Assembly: GCF_004365175.1 (NCBI RefSeq)
Contig: NZ_SOCE01000002.1
Location: 1,364,001-1,428,000, forward strand
Length of the DNA: 64,000 nucleotides
Direction of reading: 5' to 3'
Origin: Kribbella voronezhensis
GTDB taxonomy: Bacteria; Actinomycetota; Actinomycetes; Propionibacteriales; Kribbellaceae
Shown: positions 1,322 through 53,184 of the stretch, one piece after another
How the letters are laid out: each line of letters begins with the position of its first letter
How positions within the stretch are numbered: position 1 is the stretch's first letter
Notes under the pieces: model-generated
The model's input: only the letters and a program-made list of their open reading frames with translations
Databases searched by the model: none
Told to the model about the DNA's origin: nothing
Translations under genes and position numbers: made by a program

Positions 1322-2002
1322 CTAGCGAATCGTTCGAAGCCAGGGATGGTCGGCGTCGAGGTCATGGATCATCTGTCGGAGCCAGGTCTGCTGCTCAGGT
1401 GTGAGCAGGGGCCAGGTGCGATGGAGGTCGTAGGTGTCCTTCGTGCGGCGCAGTCTTGCTTTGAAGAGCAGCACGATTTCGGGGTTGAGGTAGCGAATGC
1501 CGTCCGCCGACGTCCAGGTGACCTCTTCGATCGGACCGACATGGTCCGGGAGGAACTTGTTGGTCCAGAGTCCGTCCCGATCGGGAGTGAGCGGGAGGTC
1601 GATCACCCAGGGGGCGTTCCCGTGCTCCCGGACCCAGAGCTGGCTGGCCGGGTGGAAGACCTCCGGATGTTGATGGGTCAGCGGTCGCATGTCTCCCCCG
1701 GCGAGATTCCACAGATGCCATCGCTCCCCCACGTGCTCCCGCAGCGCAGGCACATCACACGCGAGGATCGACACGTCCACGTCGTCATGCCGGCGGCGTA
1801 CTCCGGTGAAGGCGTCGATCGCCAGGCCGCCGACGATCCACCACGGGCGGGTGAAGCCGGCCATGAAAGCGGCGACGCCGGCTGTGTCGAACGGATCCCA
1901 TCGCCCATAAAGGCGAGTCCAGTACTCCGTCTCCGCGGCCTCGGCCGCGGTCGGAATCAGCGGCGCGGGATTCCCGGCGGTTGGGAGGTCGGCTTCAGCC
2001 AT
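1322..2002 (-). CDS. Nucleotidyltransferase, aminoglycoside-adenylyltransferase-like
   Basis: A 226-residue protein starting at ATG 2002 (MAEADLP). It carries the nucleotidyltransferase core WWIVGGLAIDAFTGVRRRHDD followed by VDVSI, in which the GG-x-A and paired Asp motifs bind metal and nucleotide. The rest resembles the aminoglycoside-2''-adenylyltransferase family (ANT(2'')-like, also annotated as AAD domain proteins). Chromosomal actinobacterial members of this family often have no proven resistance role, so the substrate is open. The reading frame stays open far upstream of the start, but that part overlaps the start of the VOC gene on the other strand and shows no family match. It is tail-to-tail with the sigma-factor gene, 16 bp apart. 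Confidence 0.8.
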   Translation of the reverse strand: MAEADLPTAGNPAPLIPTAAEAAETEYWTRLYGRWDPFDTAGVAAFMAGFTRPWWIVGGLAIDAFTGVRRRHDDVDVSILACDVPALREHVGERWHLWNLAGGDMRPLTHQHPEVFHPASQLWVREHGNAPWVIDLPLTPDRDGLWTNKFLPDHVGPIEEVTWTSADGIRYLNPEIVLLFKARLRRTKDTYDLHRTWPLLTPEQQTWLRQMIHDLDADHPWLRTIR

Positions 2003-29443: not shown

Positions 29444-29579
29444 AAGGACCCTCCTGAGCAGGCAAGATAGACCGTTGTGACATAACCTCCACAATGACCG
29501 GCGGGCACGGCGCGCCGGTCTTGGTGGAGGCGTGGGTGTCGGGAGAGACTGTCAAGAACCGCACAGGAGAACACAGGCA

Positions 29580-31334
29580 ATGCGCGAGGCGAAGCTCGTT
29601 GGGCTGAGCCAGGATGGCACCAAGCTCATCCTGGCTGTGGCCGAGACGGGTGAGGAGTTCGCCGTACCGGTCGACGACCGGTTGCGTGCGGCCCTGCGCG
29701 GCGACCGTGCCCGACTCGGCCAGCTGGAGATTCAAATGGAGAGCGCGCTCCGCCCACGAGACATCCAGGCTCGGATCCGAGCCGGTGAAAGTCCCGAGGC
29801 GGTCGCTGCCGTCGCCCAGATGCCGATCGAACGCGTGATGGCGTTCGCCGGCCCCGTCCTGGCCGAGCGCGACCACGTCGCGAGCCTCGCCCAGCGCGCC
29901 TCCGTCCGGCGCCGGGGCGGCGGCGATGCCCCGACCCGCAATCTGGGCGCCTGGGTGACCGAGCGGCTGCGGATCCGCGGTGTCGACCCGGCCACGGCCG
30001 AGTGGGACGCGTGGCGCCGCGACGACGGCCGCTGGGCCGTCCGCGTCTCGTACTTCGTCGACGCCGGTGAGGGTGACTCCGGTGACGAGAAGATCGCGAT
30101 GTTCGCCTACGACGCGCCGGGGCGGTACGCCGTACCGGATGACGACGAGGCGCGGTGGCTGGTCGGTGAGCAGGCGCAGGTGATCGCGCCGCAGCCGACC
30201 TCGGAGCGCCGGCTCACCGCGGTCGCCGACTTCGATCTCAGCCTGGCGCCGGATCACGGAGCCGACAGCTACGAAGCCGGCTTCGAAGACACGATCAGCC
30301 TGCCGCGCGGGCGTGCCCACCAGTCGGACCGGGACGCGAACCGCGACACCGGCCGCGGCTTCGGACGCGACCTCGCGCCGGAGTACGGGCACGAGCCGGG
30401 GCGGGAATTCGGTCGCGGGCCCGGCCGTGATGCCAGCCGGGACGTGCCGCGGTCAGGTGACGGCGAGCGCGGGCCGCGGCGGGTGCACTCGGTGCCCAGC
30501 CCGGACGACGAGCCGACGCTGATCGACGTACCGATCGAGCCGCCGCCGGCTGTGCGCCCCGCAGTACGGGCTGTCGAGCGGCCGGCCCAACCTCCCGCCG
30601 AGGCGTCTCCGCCCGCGCCGCTGGAAGAGCGCGCGGCCGCCCCCGAGAACCGCTTCACCGAACGCCGGATCGCGCCGGAACGCTCCGCCCCCCACCGCCT
30701 GACCGAGGCTCAGCGTGCGGCAGCGGCACCGCAGCAACGCCTGACCGAGGCGCAACGCGCAGCCTCGGCACCACAGCAACGGCAGACGGAGGCTCAGCGT
30801 GCTGCCGAGGCCGGACCCCAGCAACGGCTGACTGAAGCTCAGCGTGCGGCTCAGTCGGCGCCGCAGCAGCGACTGACCGAGGCTCAGCGTGCGGTCGAGT
30901 CGGCTGAGGAAGGGCGCGGGGGGCCGCGTCCGGCGGATCCGCGGCAGGCGCTACCTGGCGACCCGCGGGAGATGGCGGCGCGCGCGGGCGGTAGCGCCCC
31001 GGCGGACCGCTCCGACCGTCCCCGACCCGCCGACCCGCGCGAGACAGCAGCCCGCTCAGGCGGAACGTCCAACCAGCCCGACGCGGGTCGATCAGACGCT
31101 GACCAGCTCGGCGCAGGCCGGTCCGAGGCGGCCGGGCTCGGTTCCGCGCAGCCCGGCGCGGCCGGTGTTTCCCGCGAGACTGCTGACCGGAGTGGATCCG
31201 GCGTGGCTGATGCGGGTGAGCAGGCGGCTCCGGCTGCTGAGGCGGAGCCGAAGAAGAAGCCGGCCAAGCGTGCGTCGAAGCGCGCGAGCGTGCCGAGCTG
31301 GGACGAGATCATGTTCGGCAAGAAAGCCGACTGA
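29580..31334 (+). CDS. sepH: Septation protein SepH
   Basis: A 584-residue protein from ATG 29580, preceded by ACAGGAGAACAC. The N-terminal DUF3071 domain (about 1-200: MREAKLVGLSQDGTKLILAV, LRPRDIQARIRAGESPEAVA) holds the predicted HTH that activates FtsZ bundling in Streptomyces SepH. The rest is disordered: a GRD-rich basic part (about 255-300), Pro/Ala-rich stretches, a run of five QQRLTEAQRA-type repeats (nucleotides 30693-30893), and a conserved Lys-rich C-terminus ending RASVPSWDEIMFGKK. It acts at the division septum with FtsZ. A strong terminator follows. Confidence 0.94.
   Translation: MREAKLVGLSQDGTKLILAVAETGEEFAVPVDDRLRAALRGDRARLGQLEIQMESALRPRDIQARIRAGESPEAVAAVAQMPIERVMAFAGPVLAERDHVASLAQRASVRRRGGGDAPTRNLGAWVTERLRIRGVDPATAEWDAWRRDDGRWAVRVSYFVDAGEGDSGDEKIAMFAYDAPGRYAVPDDDEARWLVGEQAQVIAPQPTSERRLTAVADFDLSLAPDHGADSYEAGFEDTISLPRGRAHQSDRDANRDTGRGFGRDLAPEYGHEPGREFGRGPGRDASRDVPRSGDGERGPRRVHSVPSPDDEPTLIDVPIEPPPAVRPAVRAVERPAQPPAEASPPAPLEERAAAPENRFTERRIAPERSAPHRLTEAQRAAAAPQQRLTEAQRAASAPQQRQTEAQRAAEAGPQQRLTEAQRAAQSAPQQRLTEAQRAVESAEEGRGGPRPADPRQALPGDPREMAARAGGSAPADRSDRPRPADPRETAARSGGTSNQPDAGRSDADQLGAGRSEAAGLGSAQPGAAGVSRETADRSGSGVADAGEQAAPAAEAEPKKKPAKRASKRASVPSWDEIMFGKKAD
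30693..30893 (+). repeat. In-frame repeat inside sepH, five copies of a 14-15 residue unit
   Basis: Five successive units of RLTEAQRAA-x(2-4)-PQQ encode a Gln/Ala/Arg-rich helix-prone segment with a two-heptad period. DNA copies differ at many wobble positions, so the repeat is old or selected at the protein level rather than fresh slippage. Confidence 0.85.
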
Positions 31335-31353
31335 ACCACCGAAGCTGTCGATG

Positions 31354-31391
31354 GAAGGGCTGCTCGCCACCGAGCAGCCCTTCGGTCTTTT
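31354..31391 (+). terminator. Strong intrinsic terminator after sepH
   Basis: A perfect 13-bp stem (GAAGGGCTGCTCG / CGAGCAGCCCTTC, loop CCAC) is followed by GGTCTTTT, the clearest rho-independent terminator in the window. Confidence 0.9.
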
Positions 31392-31462
31392 CGCGCCTAC
31401 CGAGATTGTGGACAGCTGTCTCAGATGCCGGGCGGGGTTTGGCAGCACGTGGTGTCTCTGCC

Positions 31463-31513
31463 ATGATCTTGCGCATGCGTTACTCGCTGTGTTGTTGCTG
31501 TTGTTGTCGCTGA
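31463..31513 (+). CDS. Poly-cysteine leader peptide
   Basis: A 16-codon ORF, MILRMRYSLCCCCCCR, with six consecutive Cys codons (TGT or TGC, 31490-31507), then CGC and TGA. A second in-frame ATG at 31475 would give a 12-residue version. There is no RBS, so it could be leaderless. An 8-bp perfect stem starts at the base after its stop. Poly-Cys leader ORFs are known in mycobacteria, where ribosome stalling at Cys codons under cysteine limitation controls the downstream gene. By analogy this would regulate the gene at 31596 in response to cysteinyl-tRNA supply. The mechanism here is inferred; the ORF and hairpin are directly visible. Confidence 0.75.
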   Translation: MILRMRYSLCCCCCCR

Positions 31514-31535
31514 CGCGCGCCGTCTGAGGCGCGCG
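31514..31535 (+). promoter_or_regulatory. Attenuator-like hairpin directly after the poly-Cys leader
   Basis: CGCGCGCC (31514-31521) pairs perfectly with GGCGCGCG (31528-31535) around a 6-nt loop. A ribosome paused on the Cys codons would cover or free the 5' arm. The trailing GCCCTTTTCCC gives a weak U tract, so either termination or sequestration is possible. Confidence 0.65.
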
Positions 31536-31595
31536 AGGCCCTGCCCTTTTCCCAGGCCCGCCCGCCGACACCAGCCACCACAGGATCTGCCTTCC

Positions 31596-32012
31596 ATGAA
31601 TCTCCAGGCTTTCGCCGACCTGCTCGCGTCCCACGGACTCCGCCTGCTGCCGGGTTCGGCCGCGGTACCGGTCGACGTCCTCGTGCAGTTGCCCGACGCA
31701 ACGATCGTCCGGTTCACCGCCCGCGGCACGACACTCCGGCTCCGGCAGTTCGCGCCCGACGCCCTCACCTCGATCGTGATCGCCGCCGAATGCGGCTGCG
31801 GTGACCACCACCCGCAGACCGGCCCGAACCGCGTCACCCTGAGCGCGTACGCCGTACCGCTGGCCGAGCGCGTGCTCGACGGTGAACTCCTCTTCGGCTG
31901 GAGCCGCCACGAAGCCGGCACCCTTCGCCTCGCCGACGCCGCCGGCCACTTCTTCGCTCTGCTGGACACCCTCCCCACCACCAACACCCGCACCCTCGTC
32001 GGCGTTGCCTGA
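31596..32012 (+). CDS. Uncharacterised protein downstream of the poly-Cys leader
   Basis: A 138-residue soluble protein that I cannot assign to a family. It begins MNLQAFADLLASHGLRLLPG, has a beta-rich middle, and carries a compact CGCGDHH motif (C66, C68, H71, H72) that could bind a metal. A region WSRHEAGTLRLADAAGHFF is near the C-terminus. It has no signal peptide or membrane segment. The only regulatory context is the poly-Cys leader and hairpin 61 bp upstream, suggesting a role tied to cysteine or sulfur status. ATG 31596 has a weak RBS (AGGATCT). Confidence 0.7.
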   Translation: MNLQAFADLLASHGLRLLPGSAAVPVDVLVQLPDATIVRFTARGTTLRLRQFAPDALTSIVIAAECGCGDHHPQTGPNRVTLSAYAVPLAERVLDGELLFGWSRHEAGTLRLADAAGHFFALLDTLPTTNTRTLVGVA

Positions 32013-32110
32013 GCCGCCATCGGACCCGCCTGGCGCGGGACCTAAGCCTCTGTGAGCCGTGACGGTCGCGATCCAGCATCGCTGGTGACGGCTATCTTCG
32101 GAGGTGGGCA

Positions 32111-33796
32111 ATGTTCGCGACGCGTCCGCACGCGACAGTGGTGCTCGGGTTCGTATCCGTATTACTGGCTGCTACCGCCGGTTCCGCTGTGGCCGGCCCA
32201 CCCACACCGCCGAGGCCGGAGACAGTGGTCTCGTTGTCGGAGGGACCGTGGCCGCCGACCGCCGGGGTCCTCGCTGCGGATCCGTCCGAGGTCGCAGCCC
32301 CGGGCATCACGGCCGCCCGTACGGCGACGCAATGCCCAGCGGCGCCGTACGGCGTGAACCACTACGCACCCGGCACCGGCAAGACGGTGGCGCTCACCTT
32401 CGACGACGGCCCTGGAGTGACGACGGCGGCGATCCTGTCCATCCTGCAGCAGAACGGCGTGCCGGCTACGTTCTTCAACCTCGGCGTGAACTCCACGGTT
32501 CGGCCGACGCTGGTGCGCTCGGAGGCGGTGACAGGACAAGTCCTGGGCAACCACACCTGGTCCCATCCAAGGATGCCGACGCTCAGCTCTACGGCTCAGG
32601 CGAGCGAGCTGGACCGGGCCAGCGCGGAGCAGACCCTCCTGACCGGCATCGCTCCCTGCGTGTTCCGGCCGCCGTACGGCGAATACAACGCGACGACCCT
32701 CAGCTTGGCCCAGCAGCGCCACATGGCCGTGTGGAACTGGTCGGTGGACACCGAGGACTGGAAGGCGGGCACCTCCACCTCGTCGTACTGGGTCGATCGG
32801 ATCGTCACGCGCGCTACCGCCGGCGGCCTGCAGCACCCGGTCGTGCTCATGCACAACCCTCCGGCCGGCATTCCGGCCACCGTGTCGGCATTGCCTCGGA
32901 TCATCGCCTACTACCGTTCGCAGGGATACAAGTTCGTCGATCTGCGCGGCGGCAGCGGGATGCGCGCGCCGACGCCTGCCGCGGCTGCGACATCGGACGG
33001 CCTGCACCTGTTTGTCCGCAGTACGACCGGTAGCGTCAGTGAGCGGACCTTGCGTGGGTCCGTCTGGAGTGGCTGGACGTCGCTCGGCGGCGCGGTTGTC
33101 GGCGGCCCGGCAGCAGCAGCGACCGGATCGGCGACGACGGCGGTTGCTGCGATCGGCACCGACAACTCCGTCTACCTCAACAGCGTGAGCGACCCCGGCA
33201 CGAGCAGCGCCTGGGCCAACCTCGGCGGTTTCGCGACCAGCCGGCCGGCTTTCGTGACGACGCCCGGCCTCGGCGAGATCGTGGTCATTCGCGGGGCTGA
33301 CGGCCAGGCCTACTTGCGGCAGCGCACGGGCACTCAGTGGGGCAACTGGCAGTCGCTGGGTGGCCTGCTCGCTCCGGTGGCGCCAGCGGCCGCCGTGACA
33401 GCGAACGGTGCGCTGACTGTCGCCGTCGTGGGCGCCGACAACGCGATGTGGGTCAGGACCCGATCGTCGGCCGGTGTCTGGTCGATCTGGCATCCGGTCA
33501 GCGGCGCGATCGATGCCGACCTCGCCTTGTCCACGACCGCGGACCGGACCAGGCTGGTTGCCGTGGTCCGCGGATCGGGTAACCAGGCCGGCTTCGTCTC
33601 GGTGAGCAACCCGGACGTGACTTCCTGGACCGGCTGGGGCAACCTCGGCGGCATCCTGGCCTCGGGGCCGGCTGTCACGGTCAACGGTTCTGCCCTCGAG
33701 GTGTTCGCGGTCGGCACCGACAACCGCATCTACCGGAACTCCGCCACCGACGGAACCCAGGTCACCGGCTGGACCGGCTGGCGGCTGGTGCCCTGA
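32111..33796 (+). CDS. Secreted polysaccharide deacetylase with C-terminal beta-propeller-like domain
   Basis: A 561-residue protein. A signal peptide spans residues 1-28. The NodB (CE4) domain is at about 88-275: TFDDGP with the catalytic and metal Asp (D98, D99), NHTWSHP (H148, H152), RPPYGEYN, and LMHN near 258. A C-terminal region of about 280 residues has repeated GxWSGW-type blades (SGWTSLGGAVVG, GNWQSLGGLLAP, TGWGNLGGILAS), resembling PLL-like lectin propellers that bind glycans. It deacetylates chitin, xylan or peptidoglycan outside the cell. ATG 32111 follows GGAGGTGGGC. A 14-bp hairpin terminates the gene. Confidence 0.9.
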   Translation: MFATRPHATVVLGFVSVLLAATAGSAVAGPPTPPRPETVVSLSEGPWPPTAGVLAADPSEVAAPGITAARTATQCPAAPYGVNHYAPGTGKTVALTFDDGPGVTTAAILSILQQNGVPATFFNLGVNSTVRPTLVRSEAVTGQVLGNHTWSHPRMPTLSSTAQASELDRASAEQTLLTGIAPCVFRPPYGEYNATTLSLAQQRHMAVWNWSVDTEDWKAGTSTSSYWVDRIVTRATAGGLQHPVVLMHNPPAGIPATVSALPRIIAYYRSQGYKFVDLRGGSGMRAPTPAAAATSDGLHLFVRSTTGSVSERTLRGSVWSGWTSLGGAVVGGPAAAATGSATTAVAAIGTDNSVYLNSVSDPGTSSAWANLGGFATSRPAFVTTPGLGEIVVIRGADGQAYLRQRTGTQWGNWQSLGGLLAPVAPAAAVTANGALTVAVVGADNAMWVRTRSSAGVWSIWHPVSGAIDADLALSTTADRTRLVAVVRGSGNQAGFVSVSNPDVTSWTGWGNLGGILASGPAVTVNGSALEVFAVGTDNRIYRNSATDGTQVTGWTGWRLVP

Positions 33797-52347: not shown

Positions 52348-52350
52348 TCC

Positions 52351-53184
52351 TCAGTCGGTCCCCGTGGCGATCGGGCGGGTGGGGTCGGTGATCCATTCCG
52401 ACCAGGAGCCGACGTAGACCGGCGCTTCGATGCCGGCGATCTGCAGCGCGAGCGCCTCGTGCGCGGCGGTCACCCCGGACCCGCAGTACACGCCGACCTC
52501 GCTCGAGGCATCCACGTCGAGGTCCGCGAAGCGCTTGCGTAGTTCGTCGGCGGAGAGGAAGTGGCCGTCTGCGGTGACGTTCGCGGTCGTCGGCGCGTTG
52601 ACGGCACCCGGGATGTGACCGGCCACCTTGTCCATCGGCTCGACCTCGCCGGCGAAGCGCTCCGGTGCGCGGGCGTCGAGGAGCACTCCGGTCGATGCCA
52701 GCGCGGCGGCACCTTCGGCGTCCAGCATCGGGATGTGGCCGGGTGAAGCGACGAAGGTTCCGGCCGCGTCGGCGGGGACCGTCGTACTGACCTCTCCCCC
52801 GGCTGCCTGCCAGGCCGCGAAACCGCCGTCGAGGACGCGGACGTCGCGCACCCCGAAGTACCGGAAGATCCACCAGGCGCGGGCCGCGGCCATCGAGTTC
52901 GCGGCGTCGTAGACAACGACGGTTGTGTCCGGTCCGACGCCCGCCCGGCGTAGTGCGGCTTCGACGATGGTTGCCTCAGGCAACGGGTGGCGTCCGCCGG
53001 GGCCGGGTGGGCCGGCCAGCTCGGTGTCGAGGTCGACGAAATGGGCGCCGGGCAGGTGGCCCGCGTCGTACGCGTCCCGGCCGGGCGGCCCCATCAGGTT
53101 CCACGTCACGTCGATGACCACCGGGCGATCGGTACCCGAGTCGTTGGCCGAGCGCAACGATTCGGCAGTGATCAGCGGGTTCAT
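52351..53184 (-). CDS. sseA: 3-mercaptopyruvate/thiosulfate sulfurtransferase
   Basis: A 277-residue double-rhodanese enzyme: an inactive N-terminal domain (about 1-135; PGRDAYDAGHLPGAHFVDLDTELAGP) and a catalytic C-terminal domain (about 150-277) with the Cys loop YCGSGVTA (C234). The CG(S/T)GVT loop fits mercaptopyruvate sulfurtransferase better than thiosulfate-specific rhodanese. It transfers sulfur to cyanide or thiols in the cytosol. ATG 53184 overlaps the thymidine kinase stop by four bases. Confidence 0.88.
   Translation of the reverse strand: MNPLITAESLRSANDSGTDRPVVIDVTWNLMGPPGRDAYDAGHLPGAHFVDLDTELAGPPGPGGRHPLPEATIVEAALRRAGVGPDTTVVVYDAANSMAAARAWWIFRYFGVRDVRVLDGGFAAWQAAGGEVSTTVPADAAGTFVASPGHIPMLDAEGAAALASTGVLLDARAPERFAGEVEPMDKVAGHIPGAVNAPTTANVTADGHFLSADELRKRFADLDVDASSEVGVYCGSGVTAAHEALALQIAGIEAPVYVGSWSEWITDPTRPIATGTD

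Follow-up and report, generated by a model that had tools for sequence, protein, structure and literature searches.

The locus considered here raises the question of why a very short reading frame rich in cysteine codons should stand immediately ahead of a gene without a named family in the actinobacterium Kribbella voronezhensis. A preliminary description of the window (the whole stretch of 64,000 nt that was analyzed), made from its letters alone, had proposed that a poly-cysteine leader peptide and an adjacent hairpin place this gene under the control of cysteine. The pieces from which the proposal was built are found in the DNA: a frame with six Cys codons at 31463-31513, which reads MILRMRYSLCCCCCCR* and has its stop codon at 31511-31513; a perfect 8-bp hairpin, CGCGCGCC-GTCTGA-GGCGCGCG, directly after this stop, with 60 nt from there to the ATG of the gene; and the 138-codon gene itself, with its CGCGDHH motif. 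Their positions, along with those of the other features of the locus, are given in Table 1.

Table 1. Features of the leader locus and its surroundings, by position in the window.
Feature	Position	Strand	Remark
DUF3071 gene (sepH), upstream neighbor	29532..31334	+	DUF3071 family match
Intrinsic terminator of the upstream gene (sepH), ahead of the leader unit	31354..31383	+	13 pairs, tail GGTCTTTTCG
Imperfect palindrome GGACAGCTGTCTCAGAT, candidate regulator site	31410..31426	+	about 65 nt before the leader start
Promoter: -35 TTGGCA (31439-31444), 17 nt, -10 CATGAT (31462-31467)	31439..31467	+	consensus-based prediction
Leader ORF MRYSLCCCCCCR	31475..31513	+	probably leaderless; in-frame ATG at 31463 judged part of the -10 box
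P1, 5' strand, within the Cys codons	31497..31506	+	predicted long-range helix
Hairpin P2, CGCGCGCC/GGCGCGCG	31514..31535	+	8 perfect pairs, directly 3' of the leader stop
P1, 3' strand CGACACCAGC	31566..31575	+	6 nt ahead of the Shine-Dalgarno site
Shine-Dalgarno AGGA of the regulated gene	31582..31585	+	AGGA 10-20 nt before the start in 35 of 35 distinct sequences
Regulated gene, 138 aa, no named family	31596..32012	+	best-conserved part DG-x4-GW-x3-EAG
Rhodanese-type sulfurtransferase, beside thymidine kinase	52348..53184	-	54% identity to the relatives' neighbor

While the leader frame lies where it had been placed, its start at 31463 has to be moved, in all probability to the second in-frame ATG at 31475, which gives a leader of 12 codons, the second half of them Cys. 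The mRNA is probably leaderless, because the first ATG falls within a sigma-70-like -10 box; the second ATG sits 7 nt past this box, which is the spacing expected of a leaderless transcript. The promoter to which the box belongs, TTGGCA-N17-CATGAT, is the single promoter-like site in 31300-32200 (shuffle mean 0.0 over 50 shuffles). Its -10-like hexamer is kept 7 nt before the second ATG in 32 of 33 Kribbella upstream regions, as CATGAT in 27, CATCAT in four and AATGAT in one, with L181 as the exception, and its -35 element is less constant, TTGGCA being present at the same spacing in 9/33 regions. The first ATG is absent from five of these regions (the four with CATCAT and, as the fifth, L181) and the second is always kept; the former thus being inconstant and the latter retained, we name the leader MRYSLCCCCCCR.

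Two further elements precede the leader. The terminator listed in Table 1 is the sole terminator-like site in 31300-32200 and lies upstream of the leader, just past the DUF3071 gene, which we take to be sepH. The claim that this terminator isolates the leader and its gene as a separate unit does not hold generally, because five loci (L012, L014, L017, L020 and L024) have the conserved promoter region starting immediately after the sepH stop codon. The imperfect palindrome, with the form GGACA-NN-TGTCY in the window, is a candidate site for a DNA-binding regulator: it gives one match with at most two mismatches, as against a shuffle mean of 0.11. The form GGAC-N4-GTYC is present in 17 of 33 Kribbella sequences (the window copy, ending in GTCT, is not among the 17), and GGACA-N3-TGTCC was recognized by eye in three loci of the Actinopolymorpha family (L028, L029 and L053). 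Searching the genome with a 22-base pattern, allowing up to three mismatches, returned the palindrome's own site with none and five other sites with three each.

The association between leader and gene is retained far beyond K. voronezhensis. Homologues of the gene, which the preliminary description had called an orphan, are present in 30 of 39 related genomes, 35 of 394 genomes of the class and 48 of 293 genomes of the order. These 48 comprise 38 genomes of the genus Kribbella, eight of the Actinopolymorpha family (f4) and two further ones of the same order (f3), and reading all their upstream regions revealed a Cys-codon leader ahead of the gene in 38/38, 8/8 and 2/2, respectively. In every one of them it is a short frame that opens with ATG, contains adjacent Cys codons and stops 58-100 nt ahead of the gene (the distance in L176 being measured to the start of the match), and the Cys run, which it had been proposed to look for together with the homologous gene in relatives, is conserved. 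The named loci, which come from Kribbella species, one record titled Streptomyces sp. SID13031 and Actinopolymorpha rutila, and several of which represent the same genomes, agree in having the leader (23/23). The record titled Streptomyces sp. SID13031 (L042, NZ_JAAGLV010000005.1) has the locus in the form typical of Kribbella.

Another family of the class (f21), in which 33 genomes have the gene, displays a second type of leader in 27 of the 28 loci examined. This is a different, GTG-started frame, VT[LHMIF]..., with two to six Cys (for example VTLRLQHGRAPHWAWQVVCRPGACPCCPSPRAH), whose GTG follows a conserved CATAAT by 6-7 nt and whose end is separated from the gene by about 160-490 nt; in the one remaining locus, L085, four Cys codons lie within a longer frame. 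Overall, a Cys-codon leader precedes the gene in 75 of 76 genomes or loci examined. Three consecutive Cys codons in an ATG-started frame no more than 200 nt upstream were found for 22/22 scored copies of the gene and for 0/246 other called genes, a comparison that covers the window and the 23 named loci; the L037 copy was not called, and of 247 initial control negatives one was removed because it proved to be the L032 copy of the gene, whose called start lay ahead of the leader. In the 8.03-Mb genome from which the window comes, a search for five successive Cys codons gave 11 hits, two of them overlapping, and thus 10 places, of which only the present leader falls in a short ATG-started frame. 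The observation is thus not a product of chance. A sample of the phylum had the gene in 2/396 genomes, namely its own and a weak match in G824 (E 3.2e-4), and says little about spread, because other f21 or Kribbella genomes are absent among its matches.

Both the gaps and the codon choice bear signs of translation. The leader changes its length in frame, with gaps of 3, 6 or 9 nt, and the spacer following it also has gaps of 1 and 2 nt. Its Cys codons are mostly TGT (TGT:TGC of 148:35 in the 35 distinct leaders and 90:14 in 26 f21 leaders), the opposite of the bias in 37 genes of the window (13:71), although, as the sequences are related, neither the codon nor the gap counts are independent.

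The adjacent hairpin (P2) of the preliminary description is likewise real and kept in relatives, but it is not a terminator and instead sits inside a longer pairing between the Cys codons and the stretch before the Shine-Dalgarno site (P1). A terminator role for P2 was rejected for the window since it has no U-tract, and scanning 31300-32200 found no intrinsic terminator or U-tract hairpin in the window's 82-nt gap between leader and gene. Among 27 Kribbella sequences counted, P2 is fully paired in eight and has one mismatched pair in 19, and in L181 it displays a compensatory change from G-C to A-U. In most of the 35 distinct leaders (L016 having been folded from a longer, wrong start), the predicted folds join the Cys codons to the pre-Shine-Dalgarno stretch around at least one hairpin. 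The RNAalifold consensus of 28 Kribbella sequences has the same form, with zero pairs changed on both sides. When P1 and P2 were laid on 27 Kribbella sequences, five further ones included, 95.6% of the cells were paired, as against 19-50% in slid controls, and their covariation score was reached by one of 500 shuffles; the compensatory cells number two, both in L181, and 34/500 shuffles reach two. For six f4 sequences, the Shine-Dalgarno site itself is the partner of the codons preceding the Cys run, and the bases ahead of this site are the partner of the Cys codons. Here, 94.7% of cells are paired (slid controls, 26-63%), and the single compensatory pair, in L185, is matched by 160/500 shuffles, so that these counts do not stand out. 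The potential to form P1 and P2 is thus conserved, and the covariation support for them is thin.

Other measures of pairing vary between sequences. The duplex energies between leader and tail are below the shuffle mean in 35/35, that of the window being matched by 48 of 200 shuffles, and the cognate leader-tail pairing is the best in its column for four of seven representatives. The whole-leader fold has a z-score of -1.5 in the window, compared with -3.0 in Actinopolymorpha rutila. The f21 leaders have an arrangement of their own: in 25 of 26 loci, the last codons (CCCTCGC...) can pair over 7-15 bp with a GAGGG site that follows at a distance of 55-81 nt, this being a raw count from a longest-match search that allowed G-U; the multiple alignment misplaces the GAGGG site in five loci. 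Rfam gave no match in the window, and a further scan gave four, each far below its gathering score.

We consider it reasonably probable that the locus is a cysteine-responsive translational attenuator, like the poly-Cys leaders of mycobacteria, with a base stem resembling that of the LEU element. Transcription would start at the A of the ATG at 31475, and a ribosome would load directly on the leaderless 12-codon frame. With Cys-tRNA plentiful, the ribosome would run through the leader and leave, upon which the leader RNA could close: the Cys codons would pair 5' of the Shine-Dalgarno sequence (P1) around P2 and mask part of the ribosome site. Under a shortage of cysteine, the ribosome would stay on the Cys codons, P1 would be blocked, and the 138-aa gene would be translated. 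The association with such a leader accordingly suggests a gene whose expression rises as the cell's cysteine becomes scarce.

Simulating a stalled ribosome moved the predictions in the direction expected of this attenuator on average. The mean accessibility of the Kribbella Shine-Dalgarno sites rose from 0.25 in the free RNA to 0.31 with a stall at the third Cys codon, and that of the AGGA in the window from 0.11 to about 0.25. Placing the stall at the first Cys codon lowered the mean energy for opening the ribosome site from 6.9 to 4.9 kcal/mol in 28 Kribbella sequences and from 13.7 to 8.4 kcal/mol in seven others, the values with a ribosome at the stop codon being 6.0 and 11.5, respectively. 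A drop of at least 1 kcal/mol was seen on stalling at the first Cys codon in 16/28 Kribbella sequences and 6/7 others, and also with the ribosome at the stop codon in 11/28 and 5/7; the window's own sequence showed no drop in opening energy on stalling (4.4 to 4.6). Relative to a synonymous-codon null, the drop lay above the null mean in only 20/35 sequences (mean 2.6 versus 2.0). Thus, the modeled unmasking of the Shine-Dalgarno site is strong in Actinopolymorpha and hardly beats the null overall, and we retain this model as the likeliest rather than as an established one.

The principal competitor shares the leader and the cysteine signal and places control at transcription: a fast ribosome would allow Rho or a non-canonical terminator to stop RNA polymerase before the gene, and a stalled one would prevent it. 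The f21 loci lend it weight, for pairing of the Kribbella type with the Shine-Dalgarno site is unlikely there, because of the gap of about 160-490 nt between leader and gene; this long gap would fit transcriptional control better, and the leader end pairs with its downstream site in nearly all these loci. Rho was also proposed for terminator-less cys leaders in the available part of PMC1262725, and the Shine-Dalgarno model, as just noted, scarcely exceeded its synonymous-codon null. However, several cysteine genes of M. smegmatis are termed translation-attenuation regulated in the portion at hand of PMC13236596, the scan of the window's 82-nt gap found it free of a U-tract hairpin, and the conserved Kribbella pairing stops just before the Shine-Dalgarno site. 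On account of the last two of these, we infer translational attenuation to be the likeliest in Kribbella and Actinopolymorpha, and regard the transcriptional version as unlikely, if still to be reckoned with.

A different objection concerns the signal, and hence overlaps with both the translational and the transcriptional explanations: the leader might sense a general slow-down of translation, or the loss of Cys-tRNA under thiol-oxidative conditions, and not the supply of cysteine as such. Some Cys runs are indeed interrupted by Arg, Ser, Gln or His (CCRCCC, CCSCCC, CCCCCQCCH), and the f21 leader of L077 has only two Cys codons; yet these interruptions vary, and Cys is the one residue common to the leaders of all four families examined, which makes this a rather improbable reading. 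Still less credible is that the Cys-rich peptide itself functions, for instance by binding metals or thiols, with the gene merely co-transcribed. While the peptide is conserved alongside the gene, its length, number of Cys and flanking residues vary widely, the f21 peptide is unrelated outside the Cys residues, and neither the TGT bias nor the pairing with the pre-gene region is needed for a peptide function. An open frame without function that arose by chance is refuted by conservation, given its near-universal presence ahead of the gene and its absence from the 246 control genes. Among the points against the translational attenuator itself is that the gene it would regulate is not a known sulfur gene.

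A wider and more tentative proposal may be made: that this uncharacterized actinobacterial family is a dedicated part of the response to cysteine starvation. As the Cys-codon leaders ahead of it come in two unrelated sequences and RNA layouts over four families, selection would be keeping cysteine control and not one particular RNA, and the switch of Kribbella and Actinopolymorpha would be the cysteine counterpart of the LEU element, with its sensing codons doubling as the antisense of the region before the ribosome site.

Several known systems provide points of comparison. A run of regulatory codons in the leader is a feature of the classical transcription attenuators of the trp and his type; this is common to the present locus, but the terminator hairpin with a U-tract was not found in the window. 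Closer parallels are the poly-Cys sORFs of mycobacteria, which, in the sections available of PMC4633059, are leaderless, translated and upstream of cysA2, Rv0485 and nirA, and which have been reported as cysteine-responsive attenuators (Canestrari et al. 2020, as cited in the available text of PMC13236596, PMC9094748 and PMC9031893). Like these, the present leader is a short, apparently leaderless frame with consecutive Cys codons at its end, just upstream of a gene with which it is conserved. It differs in that it belongs to another order, its target is not a known cysteine or sulfate gene but an uncharacterized family, and f21 has a second type, started by GTG. Leaders with Cys runs ahead of cysteine genes had been predicted in 2005 for cys operons in Mycobacterium and P. 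acnes and for cbs in B. longum (PMC1262725, in its available part). These candidates also have Cys codons near the stop and no terminator was found for them; in contrast to our locus they lie upstream of known cysteine genes, and for the mycobacterial regions that study found no conserved hairpins that might act as terminators, with its available text describing no further conserved structure there. For actinobacterial leuA, the same available part describes the LEU element, whose sensing codons pair with the Shine-Dalgarno box (PMC1262725). The likeness to it lies in the base stem; here, the codons are for cysteine and not leucine, the Kribbella helix stops 6 nt before the AGGA, and the gene is another one.

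Among the titles and abstracts seen, none named such a leader in these genera, the family having no name by which to search, and no cysteine-dependent leader was found in the available text of PMC8079986 and PMC11133741. As far as the accessible parts of the compared papers go, they describe neither this gene family as a target nor how widely it occurs, and we likewise did not find in them the GTG-started type of leader or Cys codons joined to a base stem of the LEU kind. The locus presents a new target for an already known kind of switch and, if the proposal is true, takes attenuation by cysteine to a gene outside the known sulfur genes. How an uncharacterized gene is regulated often gives the best hint of what it does, and here regulation ties a family to cysteine codons: this points to cysteine limitation or thiol stress for a phenotype of the protein, and the leader is a compact RNA open to study by compensatory mutations.

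The protein itself offers few direct clues. For that of the window, neither Pfam nor NCBIfam yielded a family at E up to 1, and relatives gave only weak matches that we did not adopt, namely DUF6527 for L026 (E 0.15, below the cut-off) and SufA for 2 of 21 members (best E 0.031). The CGCGDHH motif, a candidate metal site, is kept in the Kribbella rows and partly in f4; it is not the core of the family, because the f21 rows are without it. The AlphaFold model has a mean pLDDT of 85 and is low around residues 61-80 and at the C-terminus. A Foldseek search of the PDB returned no match with E <= 0.001, a sequence profile none in the PDB with E <= 1, and the best VIA-align Z was 5.7, to actin capping protein, a level common for unrelated folds; such a missing match does not show a new fold. 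A link to the divisome through a SepX/GlpR match in L077 was discarded, as the matched stretch (1501-1935, minus strand) is the neighboring sepX and the homologue occupies 173-607 on the minus strand. An FA_desaturase match fell on the same sepX stretch of L077 and not on the homologue, and the SepX proteins, judged by eye, contain no domain of this kind.

The neighborhoods differ among the families. In most loci of Kribbella and f4, the next called gene upstream is the one we take to be sepH, which lies a few genes off in L101 and L104. In f21, where sepX takes the upstream place in several loci, a sepX-like gene (the name being from NCBIfam) adjoins the homologue in L108, L113, L115 and L117, with one intervening called frame in L113 and two in L114. 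Two different cell-division genes therefore stand beside the same rare family, a sepX-like one in f21 and sepH in the other families. Convergent with the gene and directly downstream of it in L053 and L100-L104 (five loci of the Actinopolymorpha family and one other) is a rhodanese-type sulfurtransferase. In the window, its counterpart is parted from the gene by about 20 kb (32013-52347), perhaps a lineage-specific insertion, in which a polysaccharide deacetylase and a large pectate-lyase-like protein are encoded; the stretches examined in the named Kribbella loci L031-L052 contained no such sulfurtransferase. A helper role in the supply of sulfur or thiols is probable for the product of the gene, the two grounds for this being its control and the sulfurtransferase neighbor in relatives.

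The same genome also has a sulfate-assimilation operon, sulfite reductase-cysH-cysD-cysN-like, in which a family match (PF01507) covers only the cysH/cysD-like genes, the others being named by eye. Upstream of it lies another short frame, MLAAQSTHLVGRIHVDLGRMRSAICCPSMF, in which two Cys codons are adjacent (L123:2718-2810, G000:C2); it differs from the present leader and resembles leader peptides of Streptomyces. Finally, one genome carries a second, apparently broken homologue of the regulated gene (G018:C1:4109385-4109670, two partial matches), about 9 kb from the intact copy.
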